NCBI GenBank assembly: GCA_902608415.1
Contig: CACLNZ010000009.1
Span: 1-38,611 of the forward strand
From: an uncultured PS1 clade bacterium
Lineage (GTDB): Bacteria; Pseudomonadota; Alphaproteobacteria; MED-G09
DNA length: 38,611 bases
Reading direction: 5' to 3'
A program made the position numbers and the translations under genes. The number at the start of each line of letters is the position of its first letter. Position 1 is the first letter of the stretch. Positions 6,996 through 28,844 of this stretch are shown here, in pieces. The notes under the pieces are model-generated. The model was not told the DNA's origin and made no database searches. It was given only the letters and a program-made list of their open reading frames with translations.

Positions 6996-8900
6996 ATGCT
7001 TGATAAATTAATTGAACTCTTTAATAAAAATGAATTTTATAAAGTTATAGATGAATGTGAAGAGATTCTGAGTAAACCGGAAAACTTAGATGATACTATT
7101 ACTGTTAATACCTATAACATATTAGGCCTGGCTCACTTCAATATTAATGATTTTGATAAATCTATTGAAGTTTTTAGTAAAGCTATATCTTTAAATGATA
7201 AATTATGGGTTATTCATAATAACCTTGCTAATACACATAGGGTTATGCGTAACAATGAATTAGCCTTTTCAAGCTATGATACAGCTATTAAATTAGATAA
7301 GGATGCAGGAATGCCATATTTTGGAAAAGGCCTTCTTTGTATAGCAAATGACGATTTAGAAAATGCTTGTAATTTATTTAAAACCTCAATTGATAAAGAC
7401 CCTACTTTTTATGAGAATTATACAAAGCTTTTTAAATGTCTTTATAAACTTAATAAAGTTGATGAAGCTAGAAATTTACTCGATACTGCATTATCTTCTT
7501 GTACACCATCCGATAACTTTTATAAGGATTTAGCTAAATGTTATCAAGATGATGGCAATTTTGATCTAGCATTTAAATACTATAAAGATGCACTTTCCAT
7601 TAATAAAAATAATAATGAAGTATATTATGCCATTGCAGAGTTATATATTAGATTTGATAAATTTAATGAAGGAATTGAATATTTCGAACTACTTATAAGT
7701 AAAAATTCTTCGAATCCTTACATGTATTTTTCTATATGCCTTATTTTTAATAGTCTTAATGATAGTGAATCTTTTTTTAAATACTCTGAATTAGGTATGA
7801 TTATTAATGATAATGATAGTAATCATTTGAACCAATTAGGTGTTGCATATTATAAATTGAGAGAAACTAAAAAAGCAGAAGAATTTTATAAGAGAGCGAT
7901 AGCTTCATACCCAATTTTTTGGAAATCTTATTATAATCTCGGAAACCTTTATTATAGTATTAATGAAACTGCTAAATCTATTGAAGCATTAAATAAAGCT
8001 TATGAATTGAACCCAGAAGAGAGTTTAGTGCAATTTTCATATGGAAGGACATTAAAATTAAGTACTAATTATGAGAAAGCAATCGAGTTTTTTACTAAGA
8101 GTCAAGTTAATGGCTGGGAAGAATTTGTTCTGGAATGCTTATACTTGCAAAAGAAATATGATGAGTTTGCTAATTTTTTAAATTCAAATAGTGATGCTTT
8201 ATCTTATTCAAGAACAGCATCTGCATTAGTTTCACATGCTAATTTACATTTTCAGAAAAAGGTAAAACACACATTATGTAATAACCCTTTAGAATATATT
8301 AAATATTTTGATCTTGGTGATTTTGATAATGATGATGATATTAATAAGCGATTACTTAAGGAAATAAAAGAATATGATATGGGCGAACGAAGTCAGCCTC
8401 TTTTAGAAAATGGCACGCAATCAATAAAAAATATTTTTAATCAGGGATCAGATCTTTTTAAGAAATTAGAAACAACTTTATATGAAAAAATGGATGAATA
8501 TAGACAATGTTTTTCGGAATCTAACGATAACTTTATTAATAATTGGCCTGAAGAAATAGAATTAACTGGGTGGTTTATTTCAATGTCTAAGAGTGGCTAT
8601 CTGAAACCTCATAATCATGTTAATGGTTGGCTAAGTGGTGTTTACTATGTACAAGTTCCACAAAAAAAGAATCCTTCTGATGGTAATATTCAATTTTGCT
8701 TAAATAATTTGTCATATCCACTAATAGATAAAGATTCACCCACATTAGAGATTGAAACATTAGAATCTCGTGTTGTCTTATTTCCATCCTCTCTGTTTCA
8801 CCGATCACTTCCTTTTACTGAGGACACTAATAGAGTATGTATTGCATTTGATTTCCAACCTAAAGCTCAAACTATTGAAAATACAATAGAAGTGCTATAA
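6996..8900 (+). CDS. TPR protein with C-terminal 2OG-Fe(II) oxygenase domain (HxH...H family)
   Basis: A 634-residue cytoplasmic-looking protein. About ten tetratricopeptide repeats fill residues ~1-375, a spacer carries the GxQS...N.F segment shared by its paralogues, and a double-stranded beta-helix oxygenase domain occupies ~520-625. The expected reaction is 2-oxoglutarate- and oxygen-dependent hydroxylation. Likely iron ligands are H539 and H541 in PHNHVNGW and H602 in SSLFHRS; the Arg in NRVCIAFDF probably holds 2-oxoglutarate. The PH.H..GW.SGVYY and FPSSLFH motifs match the putative 2OG-Fe(II) oxygenase family PF13759/TIGR02466, whose substrates are not established. I chose the ATG at 6996 over an in-frame TTG at 6990; neither has a good ribosome binding site. 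It leads a run of four + strand TPR genes. Confidence 0.88.
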   Translation: MLDKLIELFNKNEFYKVIDECEEILSKPENLDDTITVNTYNILGLAHFNINDFDKSIEVFSKAISLNDKLWVIHNNLANTHRVMRNNELAFSSYDTAIKLDKDAGMPYFGKGLLCIANDDLENACNLFKTSIDKDPTFYENYTKLFKCLYKLNKVDEARNLLDTALSSCTPSDNFYKDLAKCYQDDGNFDLAFKYYKDALSINKNNNEVYYAIAELYIRFDKFNEGIEYFELLISKNSSNPYMYFSICLIFNSLNDSESFFKYSELGMIINDNDSNHLNQLGVAYYKLRETKKAEEFYKRAIASYPIFWKSYYNLGNLYYSINETAKSIEALNKAYELNPEESLVQFSYGRTLKLSTNYEKAIEFFTKSQVNGWEEFVLECLYLQKKYDEFANFLNSNSDALSYSRTASALVSHANLHFQKKVKHTLCNNPLEYIKYFDLGDFDNDDDINKRLLKEIKEYDMGERSQPLLENGTQSIKNIFNQGSDLFKKLETTLYEKMDEYRQCFSESNDNFINNWPEEIELTGWFISMSKSGYLKPHNHVNGWLSGVYYVQVPQKKNPSDGNIQFCLNNLSYPLIDKDSPTLEIETLESRVVLFPSSLFHRSLPFTEDTNRVCIAFDFQPKAQTIENTIEVL

Positions 8901-8910
8901 TTCTAATGAT

Positions 8911-9873
8911 ATGCCTAAATTAGATAATAAGAAAATACCAAAAAAAAACCTTAATCTCTTACAAGACCTAATAAATAATTCTAAATGGCCCCAAGGTATT
9001 ATTATGGTTAATGATTTACTAAAAGAATACCCAAGATCACATGAATTATATACCTGCAAAGCAATTTGTTTATCGTATCTTAATAAATTTGATCAGGCTA
9101 AAGAATCTTTAGAATCTTCAAAGGAGTTTGGTTGTAAGTTAAGTGAGTATAAAGCTAATATATCTGAACTTTATTCTACAATAGGTAATTATCATTATAA
9201 TAAAAACGAATATGAGGATTCTTTAGATGCTTTTATAAAATCTTTAGAAGGGTCATCTAATCCTTCAGTACATTTATCAAATATAGGAAATGTTCTTATT
9301 AAGCTAGGAAGAAGAGAAGAAGCTAATCAATATTACATAAAGTCGATAGAATCTAATAATAAAAATCCTATAGTACATAGTAACCTAGCAAATTCGTTAA
9401 TTGAAATAAAAGAATATAAATTAGCCCTTAAACCAGCTGAAAAATGTCATGAATTAGATGATATACAGCCTTTTTATGTAATAACATTAGGAAGGGTTCT
9501 ATTGGGCCTTAATAGATATGATGATGCTTTAAAAGTCTTTAATAAACTTAAAATGATAGCACCAAATGTTCCGAGCAGTTATTACTTTATTGTTAATACC
9601 TTGCTCAAACTTAAAAAATATGAGGAAATTATAAATGTACTTAAATCAGTCGATGGTCTTTTGAAGGACCAAGCTGATTTAGTTAATATTTTGGGGGTTG
9701 CATATCTAGAAAGCAATGAAATTGAAAAATCTATTGATCTTTTTAATGAGGCAAAGGTAATTGATGCTAAAAATTCTGCAAGTTATCTAAATTTAAGTAA
9801 TGCTTATAAAAAGAAGGGTATGGATAAAGAATCTCAAATAGCATTTGATGAATATAAAAAAATTATAAAGTAA
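8911..9873 (+). CDS. TPR-only protein
   Basis: A 320-residue protein made of helical tetratricopeptide repeats throughout (about eight), ending in DEYKKIIK with no catalytic domain, signal peptide or membrane segment. Its N-terminus has the LLQDLINN...EYPRSHELY helix pair that opens most of the TPR enzymes in this cluster, so it looks like a paralogue without its enzyme domain. It begins 10 bases after the preceding stop and ends one base before the next start, so it is almost certainly co-translated with both flanking TPR oxygenases. It could be an adaptor or scaffold for them, or a decaying copy. There is no sign of a frameshift joining it to the next gene, which has its own complete N-terminal repeat. 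Confidence 0.85.
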   Translation: MPKLDNKKIPKKNLNLLQDLINNSKWPQGIIMVNDLLKEYPRSHELYTCKAICLSYLNKFDQAKESLESSKEFGCKLSEYKANISELYSTIGNYHYNKNEYEDSLDAFIKSLEGSSNPSVHLSNIGNVLIKLGRREEANQYYIKSIESNNKNPIVHSNLANSLIEIKEYKLALKPAEKCHELDDIQPFYVITLGRVLLGLNRYDDALKVFNKLKMIAPNVPSSYYFIVNTLLKLKKYEEIINVLKSVDGLLKDQADLVNILGVAYLESNEIEKSIDLFNEAKVIDAKNSASYLNLSNAYKKKGMDKESQIAFDEYKKIIK

Positions 9874-9874
9874 T

Positions 9875-11866
9875 ATGAAAACATTATCTAAGAAAAAAAT
9901 AGAGGAATTAAAGATATTATTTACTAATTCTGAAAATAAAACGCTTGAAATTGAAGTAGATAAATTAATAGATAGGTTTCCTGAAAATATATTTTTGTGG
10001 AATATAAGAGGAATGAATCAAACATCATTAAGTGATTATAATGGCGCTATTGATTCTTTTTTGAAATGTGTAAAATTTAAAGTTAAAGCTAACGATTTTG
10101 ATTCTATTGATAAATTGTATTCTAATGTAGCTTTTGCATATTTAAATTTAAAAAATAATAAAAAAGCTATAGAAAATTTCAAATTATCTTTGAAATATGA
10201 AAAGAATTCACTTAAGAATTTAATGTGTCTTTCCGATATTTATTCTTCTGAAAAGAAATATGATGATTCAATATTATATTTACAAAAAGCTCTCAATATC
10301 GACGAAAATAACATAGAAATAATAATTCAGATTGGAAAAATATTATTACTAAAAGGGGAAAATGAGGAGGCAAAAAAATATATAAAAAGAGCAGAAATTA
10401 TTGATCCAAATAATATAGATATTAAGTATATCCTAGCTAATATTTATATTAATTCTGATGATCTCAATGAAGCTAAAAAAATATATCTGTCAATTATTAA
10501 CAGCGATGAAAGTAATTATATTGCCTATAATGATTTGGGTGCTTTATATTTAAAATTGGATGATTTTGATAATGCGCTATTAAATTTAAATACATCAGTT
10601 GAGATTAATCCTGATTATCATATAGCCTGGTCAAACCTAGGAAGCCTTTATATTAAGCAGAGGCAGTTTAATGATGCTGTTGAGATGCTTAACTGGTCTC
10701 TAGGCATTGAATCGGATCATATCCCAAGTATAAGAAATATTGCTAAGGCTTATTTAGAAAAAGGTGATTTTATTCAATCTAAAAAGTATTATCATCAATT
10801 AATTGCTTTAGAAGAAGGTAACTCTAAATATCTTACTGAATTTGGAGAAATGTTTGTTTCTTCTAATAAATTTAAAGAAGCAGAAGAATGTTTTTTGAAA
10901 GCTATTAAAATTGATAGTGAATATCCTTTAGCTTATCTAGCATTAGGACACTTATATTCGGTAACTAATAATGAAGAAAATGCTATTAAGTATTTAATTA
11001 AAGCTAGTAACTATGATTCTACTAGCTCCATGTCGAATTTCATATTAGGCGAGATTTATAAAAACAATAAATTTTATGCTAAAGCAATAGAATATTATAG
11101 TGCTAGCAACTATGAGAGTTCAAAAGAAAATATTGCACAGTGTATGTATTTTGAAAAAAAATATGATGAATTTCTTAATTTTTATAATATTAATAAAGAG
11201 GAATTTAATGCTTCTCGAATAATTTCATCTATAATTAATCATGCAAATAAAACAATAAATAATTCACTTCAGCATCCTTTTTGCCCAGATCCGTTTTCAT
11301 ATATAAAAAGTGAGAATTTAGCATATAAATTAAATGATATAGATAAAATGAATAAGAATCTTATTAAAGAAATTAAGAATTTAGATAATTCAAAGAGGCA
11401 ACTTTTTATTAAAAAAGGTGAGCAGTCAGAAGGAAACTTGTTTACATTTGGGATCGAAATATTTAATGATTTGCAAAATATACTTTTGGATGAGTATCAT
11501 AACTACTTAGATAGTTTTCCTAAATCAAATGATATTTTCATAACACAATGGCCTAAATCACCAAAAATAATGGGGTGGTTTGTAACAATGAAAAAAGGTG
11601 GCTATGTAGAGCCTCATAACCATGTTGGAGCTTGGTTAAGTGGTGTTTATTATTTAAAGTGCCCTGAAAAGATAAAAGATTCCGGGAATCTAGAGTTTAG
11701 TTTTAAGGATAAGCATTTTCCTAATTCTAAAGAAGAATTACCTAAAAAAATAATTGAAACAAATGAATCAAATATAGTCTTATTTCCATCATCTTTATTC
11801 CATAGAACACTACCCTATGAAACAGATGAAGAAAGAATATGTATTGCTTTTGATTTTATGCCTTAA
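9875..11866 (+). CDS. TPR protein with C-terminal 2OG-Fe(II) oxygenase domain (HxH...H family)
   Basis: A 663-residue protein, the longest TPR oxygenase of this family here. TPRs cover residues ~1-420. The paralogue-specific spacer contains GEQSEGNLF, and the oxygenase domain lies at ~560-663. Likely iron ligands are H581 and H583 in PHNHVGAW and H643 in SSLFHRT; the Arg in ERICIAFDF is the probable 2-oxoglutarate anchor. The catalytic half is closely alike to that of 6996-8900, while the TPR halves differ much more, as expected if related enzymes were given different targets. It starts one base after the preceding stop. Very AT-rich codon use. Substrate unknown; protein hydroxylation is inferred from the TPR fusion. 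Confidence 0.88.
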   Translation: MKTLSKKKIEELKILFTNSENKTLEIEVDKLIDRFPENIFLWNIRGMNQTSLSDYNGAIDSFLKCVKFKVKANDFDSIDKLYSNVAFAYLNLKNNKKAIENFKLSLKYEKNSLKNLMCLSDIYSSEKKYDDSILYLQKALNIDENNIEIIIQIGKILLLKGENEEAKKYIKRAEIIDPNNIDIKYILANIYINSDDLNEAKKIYLSIINSDESNYIAYNDLGALYLKLDDFDNALLNLNTSVEINPDYHIAWSNLGSLYIKQRQFNDAVEMLNWSLGIESDHIPSIRNIAKAYLEKGDFIQSKKYYHQLIALEEGNSKYLTEFGEMFVSSNKFKEAEECFLKAIKIDSEYPLAYLALGHLYSVTNNEENAIKYLIKASNYDSTSSMSNFILGEIYKNNKFYAKAIEYYSASNYESSKENIAQCMYFEKKYDEFLNFYNINKEEFNASRIISSIINHANKTINNSLQHPFCPDPFSYIKSENLAYKLNDIDKMNKNLIKEIKNLDNSKRQLFIKKGEQSEGNLFTFGIEIFNDLQNILLDEYHNYLDSFPKSNDIFITQWPKSPKIMGWFVTMKKGGYVEPHNHVGAWLSGVYYLKCPEKIKDSGNLEFSFKDKHFPNSKEELPKKIIETNESNIVLFPSSLFHRTLPYETDEERICIAFDFMP

Positions 11867-11889: not shown

Positions 11890-13197
11890 ATGAGTTCATT
11901 AGAGAATAAAATAGAAGAAATCCAACAATTATTAACACAAGGTAGTGTTGATATTGCAGAAAAAAAAATTGCGACTTTATTAATGAAGTTCCCAAATAAT
12001 TTAAATCTTCTTCAATTTCAATTTGCGATATACATTAAAAAAAATGATGAAAAGAAAGCTTTAAGTATATTGTATAAAATGGCTGACATAAAAGAACATG
12101 AAAGTATCTTTAATAATATTGCCAATTTAGAGAAAAAAATAAATAATTACGATATAGCAATTAAATATTACTCTAAAGCTATTAACCTTAACAATAAAGT
12201 ACCAGAAATATATTTTAATCTGGCTAATTGCTATTCTTCGCTAAATGAATTTGATAAATCAATATTAAATTATAAAAAAGCTATAGATTTAAGGGATGAG
12301 TATGCTCACGCTCATAACAATCTAGGAAGTCAGTATATGTTAAAAGGAGATTATAATTCAGCAAATATTGCTATAAATAAGGCTTTAGAAATTGATCAAA
12401 ACTTCCTTGAGGCTACACTTAATCAAACTTTATTATTTATTTTAGAAAATAAAATAGAGAAGGCTAATGAAGTTTTAAATAATAGAATTCAATCAGGAAG
12501 TAAGAACAATATGATTATTTTTTATTATTCCATCATCAATGCATTTAATGGTAACAATGAAATATTAGAAGAACTTCTTGTGAAATTAGAAGATAATAAT
12601 TTGCTTAGTATTTGGCTTTCTTCATGGAAGTTTTTATTTTCTAAAAGATCAAAATCTTTTTCTTTAATTGGTAATAGAAAAGATAATGTTGATTTAGCAT
12701 TACAAGAAACCATTGAGAATGGTCTGTATCTTGAATTTGGAGTAGGCCAAGGTTCTTCAATTAATTATATATCTAATTCTATCAAAAAAGATATTCATGG
12801 TTTTGATAGTTTCGAAGGTTTGCCAGAGGCTTGGAATCATCTTCCTGAGAAAGCATTCTCATCTGACGGAGTTCCTCCTACATTAAATTCAAATGTAATT
12901 ATTCATAAAGGCTATTTTGAAGAAACTCTTCCTCTTTTTTACAATGATTATAAAGATACAATATCTTTTCTTCATATTGATTGTGATCTTTATAAGTCAA
13001 CAAAAATAATATTTTCGTATCTTAAAGAAATGATTGTAAGTGGAACCATAATATTATTTGATGAAATGATTTCTTATGATGGTTTTGAAGATCATGAATT
13101 TAAGGCTTTTAAAGAATTTATTATTGAAACTGATAAAGATTTTGAATGCTTAAGGATGAGTTATTTTACTGGTCAGGTTATTATAAGAATTCTTTAA
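11890..13197 (+). CDS. TPR protein with C-terminal TylF/CmcI-like SAM methyltransferase
   Basis: A 435-residue protein. TPRs occupy residues ~1-190 and a class I S-adenosylmethionine methyltransferase domain ~265-435. Motif I is EFGVGQG (282-288), followed by GFDSFEGLPE, a signature of the TylF/macrocin O-methyltransferase family (PF05711-like). HIDCDLYKST (from H362) and LFDEM follow; Asp residues at these places bind the metal in TylF-type enzymes. The family methylates sugar or small-molecule hydroxyls, so O-methylation of a surface glycan, or of a side chain made by a neighbouring hydroxylase, is a reasonable guess. It is the last gene of the first + strand TPR run; its stop is one base from the stop of the convergent oxygenase gene. 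Confidence 0.85.
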   Translation: MSSLENKIEEIQQLLTQGSVDIAEKKIATLLMKFPNNLNLLQFQFAIYIKKNDEKKALSILYKMADIKEHESIFNNIANLEKKINNYDIAIKYYSKAINLNNKVPEIYFNLANCYSSLNEFDKSILNYKKAIDLRDEYAHAHNNLGSQYMLKGDYNSANIAINKALEIDQNFLEATLNQTLLFILENKIEKANEVLNNRIQSGSKNNMIIFYYSIINAFNGNNEILEELLVKLEDNNLLSIWLSSWKFLFSKRSKSFSLIGNRKDNVDLALQETIENGLYLEFGVGQGSSINYISNSIKKDIHGFDSFEGLPEAWNHLPEKAFSSDGVPPTLNSNVIIHKGYFEETLPLFYNDYKDTISFLHIDCDLYKSTKIIFSYLKEMIVSGTIILFDEMISYDGFEDHEFKAFKEFIIETDKDFECLRMSYFTGQVIIRIL

Positions 13198-13198: not shown

Positions 13199-14728
13199 CT
13201 AATATCTATTTCCAAATAAAATTGTAGAATTTATTCTTCGCCCTTCATAACAATCTTCAAATAAAAGGCTTTGGGTCTCGTGAAATAATGAGGAATCAAA
13301 AATAACAGCTCTATTATATTTGTAAGGGACATTGATAAATTTATCTTTATAAGTTTTTATAATCTTATCCATTTCAATATTTCTTGTATTATAATCAATG
13401 AACTTCCATTCATCAGGGGCGGGTATAGTATAAATCTTTAATCCTCCTTGTCCTGGCTCCTTGTTAAATATATCAGGTGTTAACCAGAAATTAACATTTA
13501 CTTGGGCAAAATCTGCATGAATTTCTATTCCTGTTCTCTCTTTATTGTTATAATTAAAGCTCCATAATTGTTCGAATTTATGTCCTTTGAGCATATTTGG
13601 TAGAAGTTTCTTCATTTCTGATATTATCCCATGGTGGATTTTTGAAAAATTACCTTTTCCGCAGAAAGCCCCTAAGTAATTTGAATGATGATATTTTTCA
13701 TTCCAAATATTTGATTCTAATAGATAATTTCTAATTTCATCTATAGCGATAGAGTCAAGGAAATTATCAATTATAAGAATAGAAGGATTTGAATTTAAAT
13801 ATTCGTTTTCTAGTTTTTTCCAATCATGTTTTATATTGAGGTAATTATTTGTATTTTTTTTTGATTTATAAATATGTGCATTTCTCATGCATTCACTAAT
13901 AATAATTATTTCTTCTTCATTTAAGTTTATATAATTACTTTTAATATTTTCAGCTAAAATCTTATTTTCATATAAAGTTTTAAAGTCTTCTTCAGCTTTA
14001 TTAATTCCTTTTAAAGACTCAAGATAAATCACTTGTTCATAATGATGAGTAAGTTTATATGTTTGGATCATTTTATTTTCATTTATTTTTTTAATCTCCT
14101 CTTCTATTGAAAGTTCTTTATTTTTTTCAATAAGACTAAGAATTCTTTCTAAAGGCGTATTATAACTTATTTCTAGATTTATTAAATTTGCGTAACTTGT
14201 TGAATTACTATTATCAATTTCTATAGCTTTTTCAAAATTTCTTTTTGCCTTTTTATAATCACCAAGGGCTCTCTCTATTACTCCTAGTTGATTATATGAA
14301 GTATATGATGAAGGATTAATTTTTTTAGCCTTACTATAATTTTTTTTGGATTCAATAAAATCTTCATTTAAATAATGTATATAACCAATACCTTCATAGG
14401 CTTTATAATTTTCTTCTATAGATAAAGACTCTTTATACAAATCTTTCGCTTTATCTAATTTTTTTAGCTTAATATTAAGAAGGGCAAGATTATTAACTAT
14501 ATCTATGTTATTAATTAATTTCCTTATTAAAAGAGCAGAGGTTAGAGCAAATTCCCATCTTTCAATTGATATTTGAAAGGTTAATAACTTATTAAGGATG
14601 TTTATGTTATCTTCATAAACATTGTATATTTTTTCGTAGCATTTTTTTTCTTCTGTGAAATTACTTAAAAGATAAAAGTTTTTTGCTTTATTAATAATAT
14701 CATCAATAGGATTTCTTATAGTGCTCAT
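13199..14728 (-). CDS. TPR protein with C-terminal 2OG-Fe(II) oxygenase domain (HxD...H type)
   Basis: A 509-residue protein with the ATG at 14726-14728. TPRs lie at residues ~1-200, a helical spacer follows, and an oxygenase domain covers ~310-509. The likely iron triad is H404-x-D406 (HADFAQVNVNFW) and H483 (SSLFHET), with the Arg pair in GRRINSTI as probable 2-oxoglutarate anchor. This is the classical HxD...H arrangement and the domain is clearly different from the HxH...H family encoded on either side, so oxygenases of several types have gathered here. It is convergent with the methyltransferase gene and divergent from the prolyl-hydroxylase-like gene, sharing a 145-base spacer with the latter. 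Substrate unknown. Confidence 0.82.
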   Translation of the reverse strand: MSTIRNPIDDIINKAKNFYLLSNFTEEKKCYEKIYNVYEDNINILNKLLTFQISIERWEFALTSALLIRKLINNIDIVNNLALLNIKLKKLDKAKDLYKESLSIEENYKAYEGIGYIHYLNEDFIESKKNYSKAKKINPSSYTSYNQLGVIERALGDYKKAKRNFEKAIEIDNSNSTSYANLINLEISYNTPLERILSLIEKNKELSIEEEIKKINENKMIQTYKLTHHYEQVIYLESLKGINKAEEDFKTLYENKILAENIKSNYINLNEEEIIIISECMRNAHIYKSKKNTNNYLNIKHDWKKLENEYLNSNPSILIIDNFLDSIAIDEIRNYLLESNIWNEKYHHSNYLGAFCGKGNFSKIHHGIISEMKKLLPNMLKGHKFEQLWSFNYNNKERTGIEIHADFAQVNVNFWLTPDIFNKEPGQGGLKIYTIPAPDEWKFIDYNTRNIEMDKIIKTYKDKFINVPYKYNRAVIFDSSLFHETQSLLFEDCYEGRRINSTILFGNRY

Positions 14729-20232: not shown

Positions 20233-21989
20233 GTTTCTTCTCTAATAAGTTTAGTTAGAGGTTTTAAATTATTACTATATTTTTCCCATTTTCCTATTGA
20301 GTTTTTGAATATTTTTTTTCTAACTTGGATATTGCTAGCAGTTAAAACAGGCCTTTTATTTTTATAAAATTCTAAACAATCTTTATGAAAGTTAAAGTTA
20401 CAATAGTTTAGCATTTTTTTGGTTTCACCCTCTAAATCATTTACTAGATTTTCATATTGTATTTTATAAATTTCCTGTCCTAACAATTTATACCAATGGT
20501 TCATTGTTTTTTTGTACATTAAATAATAATTACCTATGTCTTCTAAATTATAAGCATAAGCATGACCAGCTGAAAAAAGTTTAGTGTATATAGAAAAGCA
20601 GTTATCCATTGAGTTTCTCTCAATATTAATGACTTTTGAGTCTGGAAATATCAATTTAATTAAACCAACAAAAAAGAAATTTGCTGGCATTTTATCTATT
20701 ATACTTTTTGTGTTTGAGGTTGAATATTTTTTGATTTTATTAATATATTGAGATCTAAACTTTAAAAAGTAATCATCTGAAAAAGTTTCTGTTTCCCATT
20801 CTTTTGATGATATAATTGAATGATAAATATCGTTTACATATCTTAGTTCACCTCCGCCATTTATATTAGGATGACTTGATAGTATTTGTTCAACAAGAGT
20901 CGTCCCTGACCTAGGTAAACCAACAATAAAAATTGGGTCGATTTTATCATTTTTATGGTTTTCATTTTTTAATTTTTCTTTAACAATGTTTCTTAATTTA
21001 GCTTGATTAATAAGATAATCATCTTTCTCTTTTATAGAATTTGTAGAAATCTGATCAGGTGTTAGTGAAAAAGATTTTGCTACAACTTTTCTATAATTAT
21101 CATTTCCTTGTTTAAGAAACTGGAAGGAATTATCACTTTTTTTATATGAACTGTATTCCCATAACCCGAATCCTATATGGGCTTTAAATTCTTCTGAAGT
21201 ATCTTTATTTGATAAGTTTTTTTTCATTCTTAACAGTATACTATCTGTTATCTTTTCAGGCGCTATTTCAGATAAATGCCGAAAAGCAGGTGAATAATCA
21301 TTGTTAATTTCCAAAACTTTCAAATATAAATCTGCTGACTTATCAAGTTTATTAACAACTTTTAAGAATGTAGCATAATTATTTAAATGATTATGATTGA
21401 TTAATTTTTCATTCAAACAAATTTCAAAAAACTTTTCAGCCTCATCTAATTCCATCAAATCAACTAATATACATGCCATTAGATTAGCTTTTTCTTTATT
21501 TAAGCCCGTCAATGAAATGCTTTTAGAGCAAGACTCTTTGGCTAAATCAAATTTTTGAAGTTTAAAAAGAGTTTTTGCATGAGGCAAGTACACCTCCTTA
21601 AAGTTTTTATCAATTTCTACACATTTCATAAAGAGTTCGTTTGCAGTATTAAGTTGACCAAGATCATAATAAATAATACCTAAGTTGAAATAAGATGTTA
21701 TGGAAGAAGAATCAATTGAAAGTACTTTTTCGTAACATTTAATAGCTTCATTATAAATTTTAAGCTTTTGATAAGAAAAGGCGGCGACATCCCAAAGAAC
21801 TGATGCATTTGGAGATTTATCAATCTCTTCGGTGCATTTTTTTATTGCTTCTTCATAATTCTGATCTTCGATAAGTCTTTTTAATTCTACTAAAATATTA
21901 TTAGAAATATCCGGGGAAGGGTTTTTAAATTTTCCAAAATTTATCTTTTTTAGTGGTTTATCTAAAAATGGTTTGATTTTATCTGCCAT
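20229..21989 (-). CDS. TPR sulfotransferase
   Basis: A 586-residue protein with the ATG at 21987-21989. After a ~28-residue basic N-terminal tail, TPRs cover ~28-260 and the PAPS-dependent sulfotransferase domain ~345-586. RSGTT (R360-T364) in FIVGLPRSGTTLVEQ is the 5'-phosphosulfate loop; ERNSMDNCFSIY holds the 3'-phosphate site, and VLTASNIQVRKKI the conserved tail. The catalytic half is clearly paralogous to that of the downstream gene, while the TPR halves differ in length and sequence. It starts 7 bases after the stop of the HlyD-like gene on the same strand, which places it in the secretion operon. Sulfation of something exported by that system is the obvious hypothesis. Confidence 0.9.
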   Translation of the reverse strand: MADKIKPFLDKPLKKINFGKFKNPSPDISNNILVELKRLIEDQNYEEAIKKCTEEIDKSPNASVLWDVAAFSYQKLKIYNEAIKCYEKVLSIDSSSITSYFNLGIIYYDLGQLNTANELFMKCVEIDKNFKEVYLPHAKTLFKLQKFDLAKESCSKSISLTGLNKEKANLMACILVDLMELDEAEKFFEICLNEKLINHNHLNNYATFLKVVNKLDKSADLYLKVLEINNDYSPAFRHLSEIAPEKITDSILLRMKKNLSNKDTSEEFKAHIGFGLWEYSSYKKSDNSFQFLKQGNDNYRKVVAKSFSLTPDQISTNSIKEKDDYLINQAKLRNIVKEKLKNENHKNDKIDPIFIVGLPRSGTTLVEQILSSHPNINGGGELRYVNDIYHSIISSKEWETETFSDDYFLKFRSQYINKIKKYSTSNTKSIIDKMPANFFFVGLIKLIFPDSKVINIERNSMDNCFSIYTKLFSAGHAYAYNLEDIGNYYLMYKKTMNHWYKLLGQEIYKIQYENLVNDLEGETKKMLNYCNFNFHKDCLEFYKNKRPVLTASNIQVRKKIFKNSIGKWEKYSNNLKPLTKLIREET

Positions 21990-21996: not shown

Positions 21997-23010
21997 TTAT
22001 TTTTCTCTAAATGCTTGCCTTTTTAATTTTGTCACTGGACTAAAGATATAGCCAAAAACAGTTCTTTTTTGACCAATTATTGAAACATCTACAGTCATTC
22101 CAGACTGGATAATGATATCTCCTAAGTTTTTATCTGTAACCATAATTCTGGTATCATAATACACATTAGAATTGTCAGGGTCCCCACCTTTAGTAGTTGT
22201 AGCGCCAACCTCAAAAACTTCACCTTCAAAGGTTCCGTAAATACCGGCATCATAAGCACTAAAACTAATTTTAGCCGTCTGTCCTTGTTTAACAAATGAA
22301 ATATCTCTTGGTAGGACTTGTACCTGTACGATTAATTTTTCATCATCTGGAACTAAATTTGCTAAAAGTTGAGCGCTTTGGACTACTTCACCTATTGATG
22401 TTATGTAAACATCATTTATCGTTCCATCATAAGGGGCTGTAATAGATGTTTGATCTAATTGTTGTTTTAATGCTGCTCTTAAAGCTTCAGATTGGGCAAG
22501 CCTTCTTTGACTGTCAACTAAACGGAGTTTTTCATCTAAAAGTCTCATTTCTGATTCAGCGCCTTGATCCACTAAATCTGAAATTAGATTAACTCTCTTT
22601 TGTAGAGTTTCTTCTTCAAGGAGAGTTGCTTCATAAGCCCTTTCATTGCTTTGATAATCAGAGTTTACTTTCACACCATCAATAACAAAAAGGGTATCGC
22701 CTTTTTTAACTTTGTCACCAAGTTCAATATTTATTGATTCAATAACTCCTCCAAAAACACTTTGAACAACTTTAATTTTTGTAGCTGGAATTACTTCTCC
22801 TGCCGCCCTTACAACCATATCAATTCTTGCTAGAAAACCCCAGACTATCGCTATTGTACAAAAAGATATAATGAAATAGAACAAAATAGAAGTTTTTGTA
22901 ATATCCTTATCAGGAATAAGATTTGTAACAAAATTTGTAAATCTAATCCTTAAGTTATTTTGGATAAAATCATTAATTGAAGTTAGTATCTTGACAAAAA
23001 AATTCTTCAT
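21997..23010 (-). CDS. HlyD-like type I secretion membrane fusion protein
   Basis: A 337-residue periplasmic adaptor anchored by one inner-membrane helix at about residues 38-62. The lipoyl half-motif AGEVIPATKIKVVQS and its partner TSITAPYDGTINDVY flank a short coiled-coil hairpin (about 110-190). The rest is beta-barrel, ending in AFREK as in LapC/PrsE-type adaptors. It links the ABC exporter to the outer-membrane channel. At 337 residues it is shorter than HlyD (478), mainly through a shorter hairpin. Its ATG overlaps the TGA of the exporter gene by four bases. Confidence 0.93.
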   Translation of the reverse strand: MKNFFVKILTSINDFIQNNLRIRFTNFVTNLIPDKDITKTSILFYFIISFCTIAIVWGFLARIDMVVRAAGEVIPATKIKVVQSVFGGVIESINIELGDKVKKGDTLFVIDGVKVNSDYQSNERAYEATLLEEETLQKRVNLISDLVDQGAESEMRLLDEKLRLVDSQRRLAQSEALRAALKQQLDQTSITAPYDGTINDVYITSIGEVVQSAQLLANLVPDDEKLIVQVQVLPRDISFVKQGQTAKISFSAYDAGIYGTFEGEVFEVGATTTKGGDPDNSNVYYDTRIMVTDKNLGDIIIQSGMTVDVSIIGQKRTVFGYIFSPVTKLKRQAFREK

Positions 23011-24713
23011 TGGCTTTCACCATTAGCTTTTTGTGTAAAGTTTGCTAAAACTTGATCTCTTGGTCCATCCGCAACAATTTTTCCATCTACTACAATTAAA
23101 ACTCTATCTACTAGTTGTAAAATGCTTGGTTTATGGGTAGCCAATATAAGAGTCTTATCATTATAAAATTCTTTTATATTATTTTGCATAATTAATTCTG
23201 TTTCACCATCAAGAGAATTGGTAGGTTCATCTAAAATCAATATAGTTGAATTTCTAACAAAAGTTCTCGCTAAAGCAATTTTTTGTCTTTGACCTCCAGA
23301 TAAATTTTTTCCTCCTTCATGTAATACTGCTCCATAACCACCTGGTAAAGCACTTATAAAATCATGCGCATTTGCTCTTTTTGAAGCCTCAATGATTTCT
23401 TCATCTTTTATATTTTCTAATCCTGCTAATATATTATCTTGGATAGAGCCCGTAAAAAGTTGAACTGATTGGGGTAAATAGGATATAACATTTCTTAATT
23501 TTTCTGAATTAATATTATTTATATCAAATCCATCGATTTTAATAATGCCATGACCAAGGTCATAATAACCAACGATAGATTTTATTAAGGTTGATTTACC
23601 TCCTCCTACCGGACCTATGACTCCAACTTTATCACCTGGATTTATGTTTAAATTTATATTGGTGAGTAAGGTCTTATCATCTATGGAGTGATTTAATTCT
23701 TTTATTTCTATTTTACCATTTTGAATTAAAGTCGCTGCATCTTGTGATATAGATTCATCCTTTGAAACTTCTTCCATTAGAGATCCTATTTTTCTAAATG
23801 CCGCTGAAGCTGAGGCAAATTTACTTAAAATCCCGCTCAATTGAGCTAATGGAGCCAAAGTTCTACCTGATAGAATTACGCAAGCAACTAGAGCCCCCAT
23901 GGTAAGATCTGTTGAAGCAATTAAATATACACCAAAAAAGATTATAAATGTTTGTGATGAAGCAACAGCGGTTTGAGCAAATGTTGTGGTGAGATTAGAA
24001 AATATTTTAGAAACCACCCCTATTTTATTTTGTGAAGATACAGCATCTAACCATCTATCTTTTAAAAAATTAGCTCCAGTAACTGTTGTAACAGTCTCGT
24101 GATTTCCTAGCAATTCTGATAACACACCAACTTTGCTTTGTTTACTTTTTAATTCATTTTCCGCATAACTTTTTAAATTAGGTTGCACTAGCGAAGCTGC
24201 TAATATAACTAAAGGTGCAATTAAGGTAGGCACAAGGGCAACTATTCCTCCGATATACCACAAAACAAATATAAACATTATCATAAAAGGAACATCAATA
24301 AATATGACCAAAGATGACGAGGTAAAGAAATCCCTGAATCCTTCAAATTCTCTTATTGTAGTGATTATATTACTGTTAGAGTTTCCTAAAACACTGCTAC
24401 TGTGAGAAGATATTTTTGTGTAAACTTTTTCTGCAACCACATCGTCTAATTTTTGTCCGGCAATATCAGTAAAATATGCTCTTAACATTTTCATAATAAA
24501 GTCAAATATATGTACTGTAATCATTCCAATTGTAAGAGCAATCAATGAGCTATAAGCGCTGTTTGGTACAACTTTATCGTATACTGTCATAATATAGAAA
24601 GCGCTAGCTACAGCAAAAAGGTTTATAAATATAGAAGCTAAAATTATTTGGTAATAAATTCTTTTATTATCAAGTACAGATTGCCAAAACCAATTGTTTT
24701 TATCAAATTTCAT
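23007..24713 (-). CDS. Type I secretion ABC exporter (permease-ATPase)
   Basis: A 568-residue half-transporter. Residues ~20-310 form the six-helix permease and ~325-568 the ATPase. The Walker A motif GPVGGGKST has its Lys at 373; the signature LSGGQRQ starts at 471; the Walker B Asp is D495 in ILDEPT; the H-loop is ATHKP. No C39 peptidase or C39-like domain precedes the first membrane helix, so it does not cleave leader peptides; it belongs with RTX-type exporters recognising an uncleaved C-terminal signal. That fits the RTX protein encoded at 1704-6899. It lies 15 bases after the TolC-like gene on the same strand. Confidence 0.95.
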   Translation of the reverse strand: MKFDKNNWFWQSVLDNKRIYYQIILASIFINLFAVASAFYIMTVYDKVVPNSAYSSLIALTIGMITVHIFDFIMKMLRAYFTDIAGQKLDDVVAEKVYTKISSHSSSVLGNSNSNIITTIREFEGFRDFFTSSSLVIFIDVPFMIMFIFVLWYIGGIVALVPTLIAPLVILAASLVQPNLKSYAENELKSKQSKVGVLSELLGNHETVTTVTGANFLKDRWLDAVSSQNKIGVVSKIFSNLTTTFAQTAVASSQTFIIFFGVYLIASTDLTMGALVACVILSGRTLAPLAQLSGILSKFASASAAFRKIGSLMEEVSKDESISQDAATLIQNGKIEIKELNHSIDDKTLLTNINLNINPGDKVGVIGPVGGGKSTLIKSIVGYYDLGHGIIKIDGFDINNINSEKLRNVISYLPQSVQLFTGSIQDNILAGLENIKDEEIIEASKRANAHDFISALPGGYGAVLHEGGKNLSGGQRQKIALARTFVRNSTILILDEPTNSLDGETELIMQNNIKEFYNDKTLILATHKPSILQLVDRVLIVVDGKIVADGPRDQVLANFTQKANGESQ

Positions 24714-24728: not shown

Positions 24729-26060
24729 TTATAGAACTAACTTAAAACGATTAAGAAGTTGCCTTCTTAAGTGTCTTGAATTTAAGTCTGCCATTAAAAG
24801 CTTTTTTTCATTTTCAATTAATTGTTCATAAAAATAAATTTCCTTTAAAGCCGCATCAAGTAAAGCAGCTGTAGAAAATGTGGCTCCGGACATTCTAATT
24901 TCAAAAGTTTCTCTTTGCAATTTAACATTATCATATGAAACTAACAATCTATCTCTTGCTCTCAAAGATCCAAGAAAAGACCCATATAAATTTGCTGAAA
25001 TATTTTTACTTTCTCTTGATTTAACATCTTTATTTATTTTGGCCTGTTGAACTTTTGCCTTACCTGCCCCAACTTGTGCACTTCCTCTTCCAAAACTAAA
25101 AACAGGAAAGTTAACATAAAATCCTCCCCTTATATCTTGATCTTCTGCTTCATCATCAAGATCATATTGAGTAAATCTTGCAGCAAATCCAAGTTTAGGA
25201 CGATATTGACTTTTTGTTATTTCTAAATTGTGTTCTGAGATTTTAACCTCGCGACTACTTCTGAGTTGATCATAGGTATCTACAAGATTTATAATTTCAA
25301 AATTATCCAATGAAGAAAGCTTTAAACTTGGTAAGCCGCGTTTGTTATAATCATCTTTATAGAAAGAAAAAAATAAAGATAAGTTTTGAACTTTATTTGC
25401 TTCTAAGATTGTTGCTTTTACCTCGATTTCACTTAATCTAATATTAATTAACGCAAATTCCGAGTTTTCTATTGCTCCAGCATTAAATCTTGCCTTAGCA
25501 GTATCTCTATATTTACTAACTTTTGATAATAATTCAGATGCGTAATCGCTAATTAAAACCGCACTGGAAGCATTTAAATAAATCTCTACTGCCTGCAAAA
25601 CAAGTTCAGAAGCAATTTGATCTCTATCAATATCAGAAATTTTCATTTCTTCCCTAGCTTTTCTAACCTTGGAGTTTATTTCATTCCCGGAATAAATTTT
25701 TTGATCAATAGATATTATTCCGTCAAAAGTATCATCCCTAGTTTTTCTAAGAGCTGATTGATAATCGTTTGCAGTTATATCTCTTGAAATAGTTCTATCA
25801 TTGTAAACTTGGGCTTCTAAAGTAGGAAATCTTAATCTCTGCGCATATTTTTTATTTGCCAAAAATTCACCTTTTCTGGCAATAGCCTTTCTATATTCAG
25901 GCTGAAGTATTATTGTATCCTTAATAAATTCCACAAAATCTAAGTCAGCTATTCTATTCTTTTCTTCAACATTAGAAAAGGTGTAGATATCTTCAGCAAT
26001 TATGTTACTAGAAAAGGTAAACAATAATGCAAAGAAAATTATAGAATTTTTAAGAAACAT
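24729..26060 (-). CDS. TolC-family outer-membrane channel of the type I secretion system
   Basis: A 443-residue protein with a clear signal peptide (MFLKNSIIFFALLFTFSSNIIA, cut near residue 22). The mature part has the alternating long coiled-coil helices and short beta segments of TolC-like channels in two halves; the second ends in LDAALKEIYFYEQLIENEKKLLMADLNSR-like helix text and a basic C-terminus. It provides the outer-membrane conduit for the exporter and adaptor that follow in the same operon. It starts 26 bases after the stop of the small protein gene. Together the three genes make a complete type I system. Confidence 0.92.
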   Translation of the reverse strand: MFLKNSIIFFALLFTFSSNIIAEDIYTFSNVEEKNRIADLDFVEFIKDTIILQPEYRKAIARKGEFLANKKYAQRLRFPTLEAQVYNDRTISRDITANDYQSALRKTRDDTFDGIISIDQKIYSGNEINSKVRKAREEMKISDIDRDQIASELVLQAVEIYLNASSAVLISDYASELLSKVSKYRDTAKARFNAGAIENSEFALINIRLSEIEVKATILEANKVQNLSLFFSFYKDDYNKRGLPSLKLSSLDNFEIINLVDTYDQLRSSREVKISEHNLEITKSQYRPKLGFAARFTQYDLDDEAEDQDIRGGFYVNFPVFSFGRGSAQVGAGKAKVQQAKINKDVKSRESKNISANLYGSFLGSLRARDRLLVSYDNVKLQRETFEIRMSGATFSTAALLDAALKEIYFYEQLIENEKKLLMADLNSRHLRRQLLNRFKLVL

Positions 26061-26487: not shown

Positions 26488-26562
26488 TGGTGGGCGTGGC
26501 TGGGTTTGAACCAGCGACCCCTACGATGTCACCGTAGTGCTCTCCCGCTGAGCTACACGCCC
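26488..26562 (-). tRNA. tRNA-Val (anticodon GAC)
   Basis: The minus strand folds as a full cloverleaf of 75 bases: acceptor stem GGGCGTG/CACGCCC, D arm GCTC-AGCGGGA-GAGC, anticodon stem CTACG/CGTAG with loop GTGACAT (anticodon GAC, T33 present), 5-base variable region, and T arm GCTGG-TTCAAAC-CCAGC. The 3' CCA is encoded. It lies upstream of, and on the same strand as, the type I secretion operon. Confidence 0.97.
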
Positions 26563-26623: not shown

Positions 26624-27508
26624 ATGCGTAATATTAATGAGGTAAATTCTAGTAAATATTTTCTATTAGTTAAACCAGAAAATCTTTTTTCACCATTAAT
26701 TGTTTCATCCCCTCATTCAGGCAGATATTATGATAAGAAATTTCTAGAATTAACCGGAAATAGAAAAAAACTATATAATCAGATTGAAGACATGTATGTT
26801 GATCAATTAGTAGAAGATTTTCATAAATATGGCTCTACTTTGTTGTCTACAAAAGTTTCAAGAGCGGTCATTGATCTAAATAGGGATAAAAATGAAATAG
26901 ATACAGATTTGGTAAAAAATTTGCCTGAAAAAAATTTTTATAAATCTATTTATGTTAAATCTGGTATCGGTCTTTTTCCTAGGCTTTCAAGAGATTATAA
27001 TGAATTGTATGTAAAAGATTTTTTATGGAAAGAAGCAAAATTAAGGATCAATAAATATTATAAGCCATGGCACTTTCAGCTAAGATCATCAATAGAAAGC
27101 ATCAGATCAAAATTTAATTTTTGTTTATTAATGGATTATCATTCTATGCCATCTAATGTTCAAAATAAGATCACTAATAAAAATCAAATTGTAATAGGCA
27201 ATAATTACGGTAAAAGCTGTAATGAGTCCCTAACTAACTTTGTAAAAAATAGTTTTATGAATAAAGGGTATATTGTTGCAATTAATAAGCCCTATGCAGG
27301 TGGATATATAACGAGAAATTATTCTAATTTAGATCAAAATATTAATACATTACAGATAGAAATTTGTAGAAGTTTATATATGAATGAAAATACATTTAAA
27401 AAGAATTCTAATTTTCTTAATTTAAAAAATAATCTTAATTTGATAATGCAAGATATATTAGAATATATAAATGATTGTAGAAGTAATAAAAATATTGCTG
27501 CAGAGTAA
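26624..27508 (+). CDS. N-formylglutamate amidohydrolase family protein
   Basis: A 294-residue protein of the FGase family (PF05013), whose characterised member HutG hydrolyses N-formylglutamate to glutamate and formate. Visible family marks are SSPHSGRYY near residue 30 (metal-binding His), SRAVIDLNRD near 85, and MDYHSMP near 170. I start at the ATG at 26624 rather than an in-frame TTG at 26615; there is no clear ribosome binding site. No histidine-degradation genes are nearby, so the true substrate may be another N-formyl or N-acyl amino acid. It is followed after 70 bases by an isolated TPR oxygenase. A second, different FGase-family gene is at 33945. Confidence 0.88.
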   Translation: MRNINEVNSSKYFLLVKPENLFSPLIVSSPHSGRYYDKKFLELTGNRKKLYNQIEDMYVDQLVEDFHKYGSTLLSTKVSRAVIDLNRDKNEIDTDLVKNLPEKNFYKSIYVKSGIGLFPRLSRDYNELYVKDFLWKEAKLRINKYYKPWHFQLRSSIESIRSKFNFCLLMDYHSMPSNVQNKITNKNQIVIGNNYGKSCNESLTNFVKNSFMNKGYIVAINKPYAGGYITRNYSNLDQNINTLQIEICRSLYMNENTFKKNSNFLNLKNNLNLIMQDILEYINDCRSNKNIAAE

Positions 27509-27578
27509 TTTGGATAAATTATTTACGAGTTAAACTCTTAATAAGTAAAATTTTTATTTTGAAATGATTTAATTAAAA

Positions 27579-28844
27579 ATGACAAATTCAAAAAGTAGAT
27601 ATCAAGATTTAGTTTCATACTATCAATCAGGTAAGTATGAATTACTTAGAAAAAAAGCATTAGAGTTTATAAATAATTTCCCGGATCACTATAATGGTTT
27701 GATAATTTTAGGAATTAGCTATCGTCAATTGAAAGAAAACCATAAAGCAATTGAAATTTATCGAGACTTAATTAATAGATTTCCTAATAACAGTGCAGCA
27801 TATACTAACTTAGCAAATATTTTTTTGGATATGGGCGAATTAGATGAATCTATAGAATATTATAGAAAATCTATAAAAATTAAAGATAATGACTGTAATC
27901 CTTTTGATGGCTTAGGTTTAGCATATACTGGTAAAGGTAATTTAGAAAAAGCTTGTGAATATTATAAAAAAGCAGTCGAAATTAACCCTAGTTTTGAAAG
28001 AGCACATTTAAATCTTGGGGATAATTACCGTAAAAGAGGTATGTATAAAGATGCAATAAAGCATTATGAATTAACCAATTATAAACTTTCAAAGAGTCAA
28101 AAGCTAGAATGTCATTATCATTTGAATGAGATTGATGGTTTTTATGAAGAGTTAAATAAATTAGCTAAGCAAGATAAACTTAATTCTTTAGCTGCATGTT
28201 TAAGTACTCATGCGTCTCAAAGGTTTGGTGTAGATAATATATATCCATTTTGTAAAAATCCTATAGATTTTGTTTATCATGAGAGTCTACTTAATGAAGA
28301 TGATTTTGATGAAGATTTTATTACTAATTTTTTGGAATATATTTCAATAAATAAACCTGATTTCATGTCTCAAAATCTTCTTAATAAAGGATTACAATCT
28401 GCAGGAAATCTTTTTCTTAGAGATGATATCGTTATTAGGAAGTTAAAAAAGATAGTTAACAAGAAAGTAGATGATTATAAGGAAAAATATTCAGCAAGTA
28501 TCGAAGGTGTTATTAAACGATGGCCTATGAGTTATGATTTATATGGGTGGGTAATTGAAATTGAGAAAGAAGGTAATCTAGATCCACATATTCACAAAGA
28601 AGGTTGGATAAGTGGAAGTATTTATATGAACTTACCTGAGAATGAGGGAACAGATGAAGGTAAGCTTAAGGTCGGTTTGCACGGAGCTAATTATCCTGAT
28701 GATGGCAAAATCTATCAAAATAAAATTATACCAATAAGAACTGGGGATGTAGTTATATTTCCTTCTTCACTTTTTCATGAAACTATTCCTTTTAAAATTA
28801 ACGAAAAAAGAGTTTCATTTGCCTTTGATTTGATGCCAAAATAG
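27579..28844 (+). CDS. TPR protein with C-terminal 2OG-Fe(II) oxygenase domain (HxH...H family), outlying copy
   Basis: A 421-residue protein, the shortest of the four HxH...H paralogues in the window. TPRs occupy residues ~1-165, the shared spacer carries GLQSAGNLF, and the oxygenase domain is at ~315-421. Likely iron ligands are H337 and H339 (PHIHKEGW) and H400 (SSLFHET); the Arg in KRVSFAFDL probably binds 2-oxoglutarate. It lies outside the main cluster, on the far side of tRNA-Val and an FGase-family gene, on its own. It could be the ancestral or a dispersed copy of the family. Its 3' end faces the alpha/beta hydrolase gene across 25 bases. Confidence 0.87.
   Translation: MTNSKSRYQDLVSYYQSGKYELLRKKALEFINNFPDHYNGLIILGISYRQLKENHKAIEIYRDLINRFPNNSAAYTNLANIFLDMGELDESIEYYRKSIKIKDNDCNPFDGLGLAYTGKGNLEKACEYYKKAVEINPSFERAHLNLGDNYRKRGMYKDAIKHYELTNYKLSKSQKLECHYHLNEIDGFYEELNKLAKQDKLNSLAACLSTHASQRFGVDNIYPFCKNPIDFVYHESLLNEDDFDEDFITNFLEYISINKPDFMSQNLLNKGLQSAGNLFLRDDIVIRKLKKIVNKKVDDYKEKYSASIEGVIKRWPMSYDLYGWVIEIEKEGNLDPHIHKEGWISGSIYMNLPENEGTDEGKLKVGLHGANYPDDGKIYQNKIIPIRTGDVVIFPSSLFHETIPFKINEKRVSFAFDLMPK

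Follow-up and report, generated by a model that had tools for sequence, protein, structure and literature searches.

What do ten tetratricopeptide repeat (TPR) proteins act on when most of them carry an oxygenase, sulfotransferase or methyltransferase domain and their genes lie beside a giant RTX protein and a type I exporter? The question is raised by a 38,611-nt stretch from an uncultured PS1 clade bacterium of the Alphaproteobacteria (contig CACLNZ010000009.1, assembly GCA_902608415.1), which as a whole is called the window here. The window is one contig (G000:C9) of a 1.1 Mb genome that is 83% complete, and the relatives compared are the 18 genomes of its family (G handles; loci outside the window have L handles). 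The explanation that we favour, at a probability of roughly 0.56, is that the TPR proteins modify the RTX surface protein in the cytosol, before its type I export, and that they constitute an exchangeable cassette. The strongest evidence is that alleles of the RTX protein, the exporter and the cassette change as a set among relatives, which argues that these parts work together.

Protein domains were assigned with Pfam, the exporter additionally with TIGRFAM/NCBIfam models, and Protein Data Bank (PDB) relatives were sought by sequence and by structure. The window contains the following features (2OG, 2-oxoglutarate; PAPS, 3'-phosphoadenosine 5'-phosphosulfate; pLDDT, predicted local distance difference test; P4H, prolyl-4-hydroxylase; ABC, ATP-binding cassette).

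1..1494, plus strand: up1, 3' part of a surface-lipoprotein gene cut by the contig start (lipobox-like motif in homologues)
1704..6899, plus strand: giant RTX protein, 1731 aa, lacking Cys and rich in Thr, Gly and Asp (PF00353, six HemolysinCabind stretches)
6923..6945, plus strand: terminator-like hairpin after the RTX gene (10 pairs, 6 G-C, T-tract)
6996..8900, plus strand: TPR and 2OG-FeII_Oxy_5 (PF13759, E 7e-20; catalytic-domain model pLDDT 89, top PDB match Pseudomonas putida P4H)
8911..9873, plus strand: TPR-only protein (Pfam TPR, without catalytic domain)
9875..11866, plus strand: TPR and 2OG-FeII_Oxy_5 (PF13759, E 6e-22)
11890..13197, plus strand: TPR and TylF/Methyltransf_24 methyltransferase (PF05711, E 2e-8; PF13578, E 5e-8; phrog_6608 methyltransferase, E 2e-39)
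13199..14728, minus strand: TPR and third-type 2OG oxygenase with a predicted PHD2-like fold (HxD..H..R; no Pfam catalytic match)
14874..16211, plus strand: TPR and 2OG-FeII_Oxy_3, prolyl-4-hydroxylase-like (PF13640, E 5e-11; PDB P4H 3itq/5hv0, E 1e-8)
16226..18028, plus strand: TPR and 2OG-FeII_Oxy_5 (PF13759, E 3e-23)
18040..20232, minus strand: TPR and PAPS sulfotransferase (PF13469, E 1e-40; RSGTT-type, GEL and R..S motifs)
20229..21989, minus strand: TPR and PAPS sulfotransferase, 7 nt after hlyD (PF13469, E 3e-39)
21997..23010, minus strand: HlyD-type periplasmic adaptor (TIGR01843, E 3e-66, over cut-off)
23007..24713, minus strand: LssB-like type I ABC permease/ATPase that lacks the N-terminal part (TIGR03375, E 7e-183, below the curated cut-off)
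24729..26060, minus strand: TolC-like outer-membrane protein (OEP; PF02321, E 6e-16)
26488..26562, minus strand: tRNA-Val(GAC), flanking the exchanged block on the side of the exporter (ARAGORN)
27579..28844, plus strand: TPR and 2OG-FeII_Oxy_5, the most widely conserved member (PF13759, E 1e-20)

A first-pass annotation of this DNA had described nine consecutive TPR proteins and one outlier, with the cluster set between a 1731-residue RTX protein and the exporter genes. The coordinates and open reading frame (ORF) calls bear this out: nine TPR genes follow one another at 6996-21989, those at 13199, 18040 and 20229 on the minus strand, the tenth starts at 27579, and Pfam finds TPRs in 10/10 proteins. 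The catalytic tally is four Oxy_5 domains, one Oxy_3 domain, one oxygenase fold outside Pfam, two Sulfotransfer_3 domains, one TylF/Methyltransf_24 domain and one TPR-only protein. It thus agrees with the annotation's count of two sulfotransferases, one TylF-like methyltransferase and one TPR-only protein, and at the level of fold also with its six 2OG oxygenase domains of three types.

An orthologous ABC gene (E <1e-160) is present in 9/18 family genomes (G000, G003, G005, G007, G008, G010, G011, G012 and G016), and the other nine have distant ABC matches only. Neighbourhoods were fetched around these orthologues, and as far as the contigs reach, RTX and cassette genes adjoin the exporter in a common frame: up1, giant RTX, variable cassette, HlyD-ABC-OEP, tRNA-Val(GAC), hydrolase, PK and PntA. 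The tRNA stands on the exporter side in all eight loci whose contig reaches that side (the G016 contig stops at OEP), directly after OEP in G000, G003, G007 and G008 and with two to four genes intervening in G005, G010, G011 and G012. Most loci have a TPR-Oxy_5 gene between the tRNA and the hydrolase, and Oxy5d-type genes adjoin the same hydrolase in G003, G005, G007, G010 (two) and G011. On the tRNA side, the window also holds two N-formylglutamate amidohydrolase genes (26615-27508 and 33945-34736).

The cassette occurs in two main forms, one composed of TPR enzymes and the other of deoxythymidine diphosphate (dTDP)-rhamnose and glycosyltransferase genes. TPR-enzyme cassettes are found in G000, G003, G007 and G012, the last with three sulfotransferases plus, on the far side of the exporter, a carbamoyltransferase and a TPR-methyltransferase. 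The G010 cassette consists, by Pfam, of RmlA-, RmlB-, RmlC- and RmlD-type genes (NTP_transferase, GDP_Man_Dehyd, dTDP_sugar_isom and RmlD_sub_bind domains), two GT4 glycosyltransferases and one methyltransferase. G016 is 94-96% identical to G010 at the RTX gene and exporter, with equal gene sizes, and G005, whose DNA aligns with that of G010 over 10 kb, has a cassette of the same dTDP-rhamnose/glycosyltransferase type. The cassette type of G011 and G008 was set by gene order and size or by N-termini. Directly after hlyD, G011 encodes a 1575-aa TPR protein with GT41 (O-GlcNAc transferase/SPINDLY-type) stretches (L046:2495-7219).

The RTX and exporter alleles travel with the cassette type across genera, against the genus assignment. 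G000 and G005 belong to the same genus and their PK proteins are 98% identical (297 aa compared), whereas ABC, HlyD, OEP and RTX are 50, 40, 28 and 40% identical and the cassettes differ. G007, from another genus, is 63% and 58% identical to G000 at PK and PntA, yet 72% at ABC, 65% at HlyD and 39% at OEP, and both genomes have TPR cassettes. Similarly, G005 and G010 are from different genera (PK 69%) and share 78, 69, 65 and 62% identity at ABC, HlyD, OEP and RTX, with rhamnose cassettes in both. G012 has its own exporter allele (ABC 45-50% identical to others), together with sulfotransferases. At the DNA level, the window and G005 align at 79% over 5.4 kb beyond the right side of the block, and also at the tRNA; to the left of the block the alignments are only short or weak. 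G007, with no more than the C-terminal 115 aa of the RTX protein, and G008, with an RTX fragment, are like G016 absent from some of these comparisons.

The TPR enzymes are also concentrated at this locus. In the exporter-positive family genomes it holds 19/22 Oxy_5 domains above 60 bits and 8/10 sulfotransferase domains, a count that includes contig C24, which supplies the G003 OEP and was assigned by inference as the other half of the G003 locus. For a 60-kb target, the binomial P is 3e-22 for Oxy_5 and 2e-9 for sulfotransferases, values that are too small since tandem copies are not independent. Sulfotransferase domains occur in 4/18 family genomes, and in three of these four (G000, G003 and G012) the genes directly follow hlyD. 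The type I secretion set at the window's locus is complete, with HlyD, ABC, TolC-like OEP and the RTX protein; the 568-aa ABC protein matches TIGR03375 at profile positions 135-694. Spacings of +15, -4, +7 and -4 nt along OEP-ABC-HlyD and the two sulfotransferase genes are consistent with one operon, in line with the annotation's statement that the sulfotransferases share the exporter operon. The plus-strand TPR genes are probably on a transcript of their own, because the RTX gene ends in a terminator-like hairpin; one such hairpin is present in 6600-9000, against a mean of 0.7 in shuffled sequence.

The catalytic domains indicate which chemistries the cassette may perform. The domain at 13199, in which Pfam found no catalytic domain, gives a model (pLDDT 83) that matches the PHD2 structure 6zbo (E 5e-9, structure search), and its HxD..H..R motif is invariant in 16/16 aligned sequences. 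On the predicted model, it is a third 2OG-oxygenase type at the level of fold. This domain also matches phrog_1644, annotated 'minor coat protein' (E 2e-13). Its family has 36 matches in 29/337 genomes of the class; the frames are 326-727 aa long, with TPRs checked in L173 only. The domain is found in none of the other 17 family genomes. The protein at 14874 reads HxE..H..K by eye. The Oxy_5 model (pLDDT 89) is nearest to the prolyl hydroxylases 4j25, 4iw3, PHD2 and OGFOD1, and by E-value both modelled oxygenase domains are closest to protein hydroxylases (PHD2 and P4H). In Oxy_5 domains, such as that at window 8250-8897, an HxH may form a three-histidine metal site.

In the sulfotransferases, an RSGTT-type loop, GEL and R458/S466 (20229 numbering) are conserved in an alignment of nine sequences; we take RSGTT to be the 5'-phosphosulfate-binding motif, R..S the 3'-phosphate-binding motif and the Glu catalytic. 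The protein at 20229 is nearest in the PDB to tyrosylprotein sulfotransferases (TPSTs; E 9e-5 over ~40 residues), and it matches the NCBIfam model of the nodulation sulfotransferase NoeE as well as it matches TPSTs (E 9e-5 over 25 residues).

A simple hydropathy scan detected no hydrophobic N-terminus on any of the ten TPR proteins, and the same scan showed membrane-like stretches in OEP, ABC and HlyD. Since they lack hydrophobic N-termini, the TPR enzymes should reside in the cytosol, the compartment in which a type I substrate stays until it is exported. The first-pass annotation had further proposed that the catalytic domains are kept and the TPR arrays varied to choose targets. The former holds, with a mean identity of 37% for catalytic domains and 28% for TPR arrays (27 proteins, 351 pairs). 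The latter is not supported: window Oxy_5 pairs share 32-48% in the catalytic domain and 23-32% in the arrays, close to the 28% mean of the 351 pairs, and because most arrays are about as similar as any two TPR arrays would be, they give no sign of target tuning.

The candidate substrate, by its composition and size, is probably a surface-layer or adhesin protein. Its N-terminal ~240 aa are 54-58% identical to those of the G005, G010, G011, G012 and G016 proteins, and the rest is more variable. The first ~125 aa (window 1704-2423) recur in other family proteins, with up to seven matches scored per genome. This N-terminal module occurs in many genes of G005, G009 and G010, once at a C-terminus (G009), and also in a genome without the RTX exporter, and it is perhaps a surface-anchoring or sorting module. 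Upstream, up1 has no Pfam match, and a lipobox-like LAAC|GGGG is present in its G003, G012 and G010 homologues; a tandem 12/24-nt repeat at window 938-1064 codes for an SSDT-type linker in up1.

Sulfotransferases need PAPS, and two relatives encode a possible source within the locus. APS (adenosine 5'-phosphosulfate) kinase (PF01583) is found in 2/18 family genomes (11/14 controls positive), G003 and G012, both sulfotransferase-positive. The two proteins are 310-aa fusions with an NMNAT-like nucleotidyltransferase and are 71% identical to each other; their genes are:

L033:2577-3506, in G003: NMNAT-like/APS-kinase fusion
L036:5305-6234, in G012: NMNAT-like/APS-kinase fusion

The N-terminal half is NMNAT-like (PDB 2qjt, E 3e-8) and the APS kinase half exceeds the TIGR00455 cut-off (PAPSS1, E 6e-25). 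Both fusions lie directly upstream of up1-RTX, that is, in 2/2 sulfotransferase-positive genomes with that side on the contig; the window contig starts inside up1, and the expected position of the fusion, just upstream, is off the contig. ATP sulfurylase (PF01747) is detected in 0/18 family genomes (5/14 controls positive), and because of this sulfate activation looks dedicated to the RTX locus; the N-terminal half of the fusion may replace the sulfurylase. For PF01507, which we take to include CysD and PAPS reductase, the family has a match in G015 and a weak one in G004 and no others (14/14 controls positive); neither genome is sulfotransferase-positive. Ordinary sulfate assimilation is thus apparently missing in the family, within the limits of incomplete genomes, and for that reason PAPS would serve only sulfation. 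A homologous fusion stands beside a sulfotransferase gene in 3/3 haloarchaeal plasmid regions, in one with a 162-nt ORF between them, and a fourth region, in Skermanella, contains cysD, a long cysC and a sulfotransferase. On viral contigs, 23 relatives of the APS-kinase fusion were found, 17 matching the nucleotidyltransferase half only.

Viral contigs also contain 20 Oxy_5 relatives, of which 3/9 frames inspected by eye have TPR-like sequence (L226, L237 and L239, all catalogued as viral). A scan found no 13199 relative on viral contigs, and a single viral origin was considered and dropped.

From all this we infer that the enzymes act on the RTX protein and that hydroxyl, sulfate or methyl groups are the products. 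The block would serve to express a surface protein and would carry an exchangeable modification cassette of its own. The RTX protein would be made and kept in the cytosol, where the TPR arrays of the signal-less enzymes would bind stretches of it and offer residues to the C-terminal domains, so that it may be hydroxylated by the 2OG oxygenases, sulfated by the PAPS sulfotransferases and methylated by the methyltransferase. HlyD-ABC-TolC would then move the modified chain outside in one step, and there calcium would make the RTX repeats fold, giving a surface layer or adhesin. In alleles with sulfotransferases, PAPS would come from the locus-encoded NMNAT-like/APS-kinase fusion, because these genomes apparently lack ordinary sulfate assimilation; other alleles would use dTDP-rhamnose and glycosyltransferases, once also a TPR-GT41 enzyme. 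Exchange of the block would let lineages switch surface chemistry as a set.

A number of observations weigh against this explanation. Small-molecule oxygenases (for example HygX) and halogenases come close behind the protein hydroxylases in the fold searches. The Oxy_5 metal motif reads HxH..H..R in 20/20 aligned sequences, in place of the usual HxD..H..R, and HxH is present in 26/27 of a larger set, the sole exception being a degenerate G003 copy (13360-15108); because the acid of the motif is replaced, the chemistry of Oxy_5 is less certain. In sulfotransferase-positive genomes, the RTX tyrosines lack the acidic context expected of TPST sites, and RTX proteins of sulfotransferase-negative genomes show more of it. 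Tyrosines are denser in the former, at 14-19 per 1000 residues versus 9-13 (seven partly related proteins), but with no acidic enrichment, and tyrosine sulfation at acidic TPST-like sites was therefore dropped as support. No APS kinase was found in the rest of the window's own genome, of which 83% is available and in which the expected position is off the contig, nor in the sulfotransferase-positive G008 (95% complete). None of the six genomes that are at least 90% complete has one, the two positives being 79% and 76% complete.

Further points concern the extent of the block and its contents. Divergence between G000 and G005 extends past the tRNA to the hydrolase (59%), and neither contig reaches the left edge, so that the exchanged stretch is mapped in part. 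The cassette forms are not exclusive, since G008 joins the rhamnose-type set to a sulfotransferase beyond OEP, across the tRNA. G007 has further TPR enzymes ~8-15 kb away, between PK and PntA, and in G009, also of the family, three TPR-Oxy_5 genes share a contig although the genome lacks this exporter. Presence alone shows no more than a trend (Fisher 0.057 for TPR-Oxy_5 and 0.08 for sulfotransferases). Outside the family, the best 80 of at least 544 confirmed relatives were surveyed within 10 kb around TPR-sulfotransferase genes, many on short contigs and two yielding no sulfotransferase on ORF calling; they had one RTX gene, one HlyD homologue (>9 kb away) and three TPR-Oxy_5 neighbours. Forty Oxy_5 neighbourhoods, chosen by frame size among the matches listed and six of them without an Oxy_5 match to the window queries, had one RTX gene, two weak HlyD matches and one ABC gene. 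Oxy_5 is found in 101/289 genomes of the class at E 1e-12, many frames being too short for a TPR array. Clusters of TPR-sulfotransferase and TPR-oxygenase genes are seen at L173:4401-11486 (G134), L171:6411-14093 (G199) and L191:3-4245 (G118), with no RTX or type I gene in the stretch covered. These neighbourhood counts led us to reject, outside the family, a general association of TPR enzymes with RTX or type I genes; the coupling belongs to the locus in this family and is no general property of the enzymes. What stands of the annotation's modification pathway tied to RTX and exporter is that the enzymes belong to the locus, as the co-changing alleles, the sulfotransferases after hlyD and the PAPS-supply gene indicate; its extension to a general rule does not. 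The co-occurrence that the annotation had proposed checking in related genomes is likewise found inside the family, but not in the G009 cluster and rarely in loci outside. The annotation had named TPR clusters without a nearby RTX protein or type I system as refuting its reading, and such clusters count in part against it.

The main uncertainty is whether the RTX polypeptide, rather than a glycan or the up1 lipoprotein, is the target. Foremost among the alternatives, though unlikely, is that the target of the cassette is a glycan of the cell surface (O-antigen, capsule or surface-layer anchor polysaccharide) and that the TPR arrays assemble with glycosyltransferases. The G010 cassette makes dTDP-rhamnose and adds two GT4 enzymes and a methyltransferase, a TPR protein of G007 has an RMNT_CmcI (rhamnosyl O-methyltransferase) domain, G012 has a carbamoyltransferase, and the NoeE match of 20229 equals that to TPSTs; in Caulobacter, the S-layer secretion genes adjoin O-antigen genes that anchor the S-layer. 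However, the seven G010 cassette genes include no polymerase, flippase or initiating transferase, the TPR-GT41 enzyme of G011 is of the protein O-glycosyltransferase kind, and the modelled oxygenase domains are nearest to peptide hydroxylases.

It is improbable, too, that the locus is just a hypervariable surface island at a tRNA gene, in which fast-evolving TPR enzymes and an RTX exporter are neighbours without a common task. Such an island would account for the constant tRNA-Val, for the TPR enzymes that G007 has between PK and PntA and G003 has next to Carbtr, and for the little association outside the family and the exporter-free cluster of G009, but not so readily for the sulfotransferases that immediately follow hlyD in three genomes, the PAPS-supply gene that two genomes have in the locus, or the joint change of RTX, exporter and cassette. 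That the TPR enzymes regulate cellular proteins such as translation factors or ribosomal proteins, their place beside the exporter being incidental, is highly improbable. The second-best structural match of Oxy_5 is a P. putida P4H solved with EF-Tu (4iw3), and OGFOD1, an enzyme with a ribosomal protein as its substrate, is among the matches too; replacement of the cassette within one genus is, however, unlike housekeeping regulation, and many copies lie at one surface locus.

Modification of the RTX protein before export has a parallel in the raxX-raxSTAB genes of Xanthomonas, where a tyrosylprotein sulfotransferase is linked to a type I exporter, RaxX is tyrosine-sulfated and exported by RaxAB, and the set has moved laterally by flanking recombination (PMC6637879). 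In raxSTAB, sulfation precedes export, and both systems place a sulfotransferase gene beside type I exporter genes. RaxX is a precursor of 60 residues from which RaxB cleaves the leader, whereas the candidate substrate here is an RTX protein of ~1,600-2,100 aa; the small leader-peptide substrate and peptidase-bearing ABC of raxSTAB have no counterpart here, the ABC protein lacking the N-terminal part. The sulfotransferases here are, in addition, fused to TPRs and accompanied by oxygenases and a methyltransferase, with a PAPS-supply gene in two relatives' loci. By this analogy, the best reading of the locus would be the raxSTAB-like principle enlarged, with a giant RTX protein, several TPR-guided chemistries, a dedicated PAPS source and exchange of the whole set. 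No report of a TPR-sulfotransferase with type I secretion was found in the literature searched, as far as its texts were available.

The Caulobacter RsaA/RsaDEF type I secreted S-layer system resembles this locus in its large Cys-free RTX protein beside the exporter and, for the rhamnose alleles, in the surface-sugar genes nearby; we know of no TPR-oxygenase or sulfotransferase cassette in it. Collagen prolyl 4-hydroxylase, AspH and O-GlcNAc transferase are TPR-guided protein-modifying enzymes that likewise have a TPR-type domain ahead of a 2OG oxygenase or transferase, with similar catalytic folds. They differ in that here several catalytic families stand on similar N-terminal arrays in one bacterial locus and that Oxy_5 has HxH, not HxD. 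Rhizobial NodPQ with NodH sets a dedicated PAPS maker beside the sulfotransferase that uses PAPS, as in the relatives' loci, but in the latter the putative maker is an NMNAT-like/APS-kinase fusion in genomes without detected ATP sulfurylase and the proposed user is a protein sulfotransferase.

To our knowledge, export-coupled protein sulfation is known from few bacterial systems, and we know of no assigned targets for bacterial TPR-oxygenases and TPR-sulfotransferases, common as they are. The locus offers a concrete set of enzymes, substrate and exporter in which natural allele swaps make the targets testable, and a sulfate-activation gene in genomes without detected sulfate assimilation. The swapping of cassettes suggests a chemically variable cell surface. 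We propose tentatively, at somewhat short of an even chance, a modular and horizontally swapped surface-chemistry code, in which the cassette would write either TPR-guided sulfate, hydroxyl and methyl marks, with PAPS from the on-site NMNAT-like/APS-kinase fusion in bacteria without sulfate assimilation, or rhamnose-glycan marks on the RTX protein before export, and close relatives would offer phages and grazers surfaces of different chemistry. If true, these streamlined bacteria would vary their surface chemistry by swapping one block.

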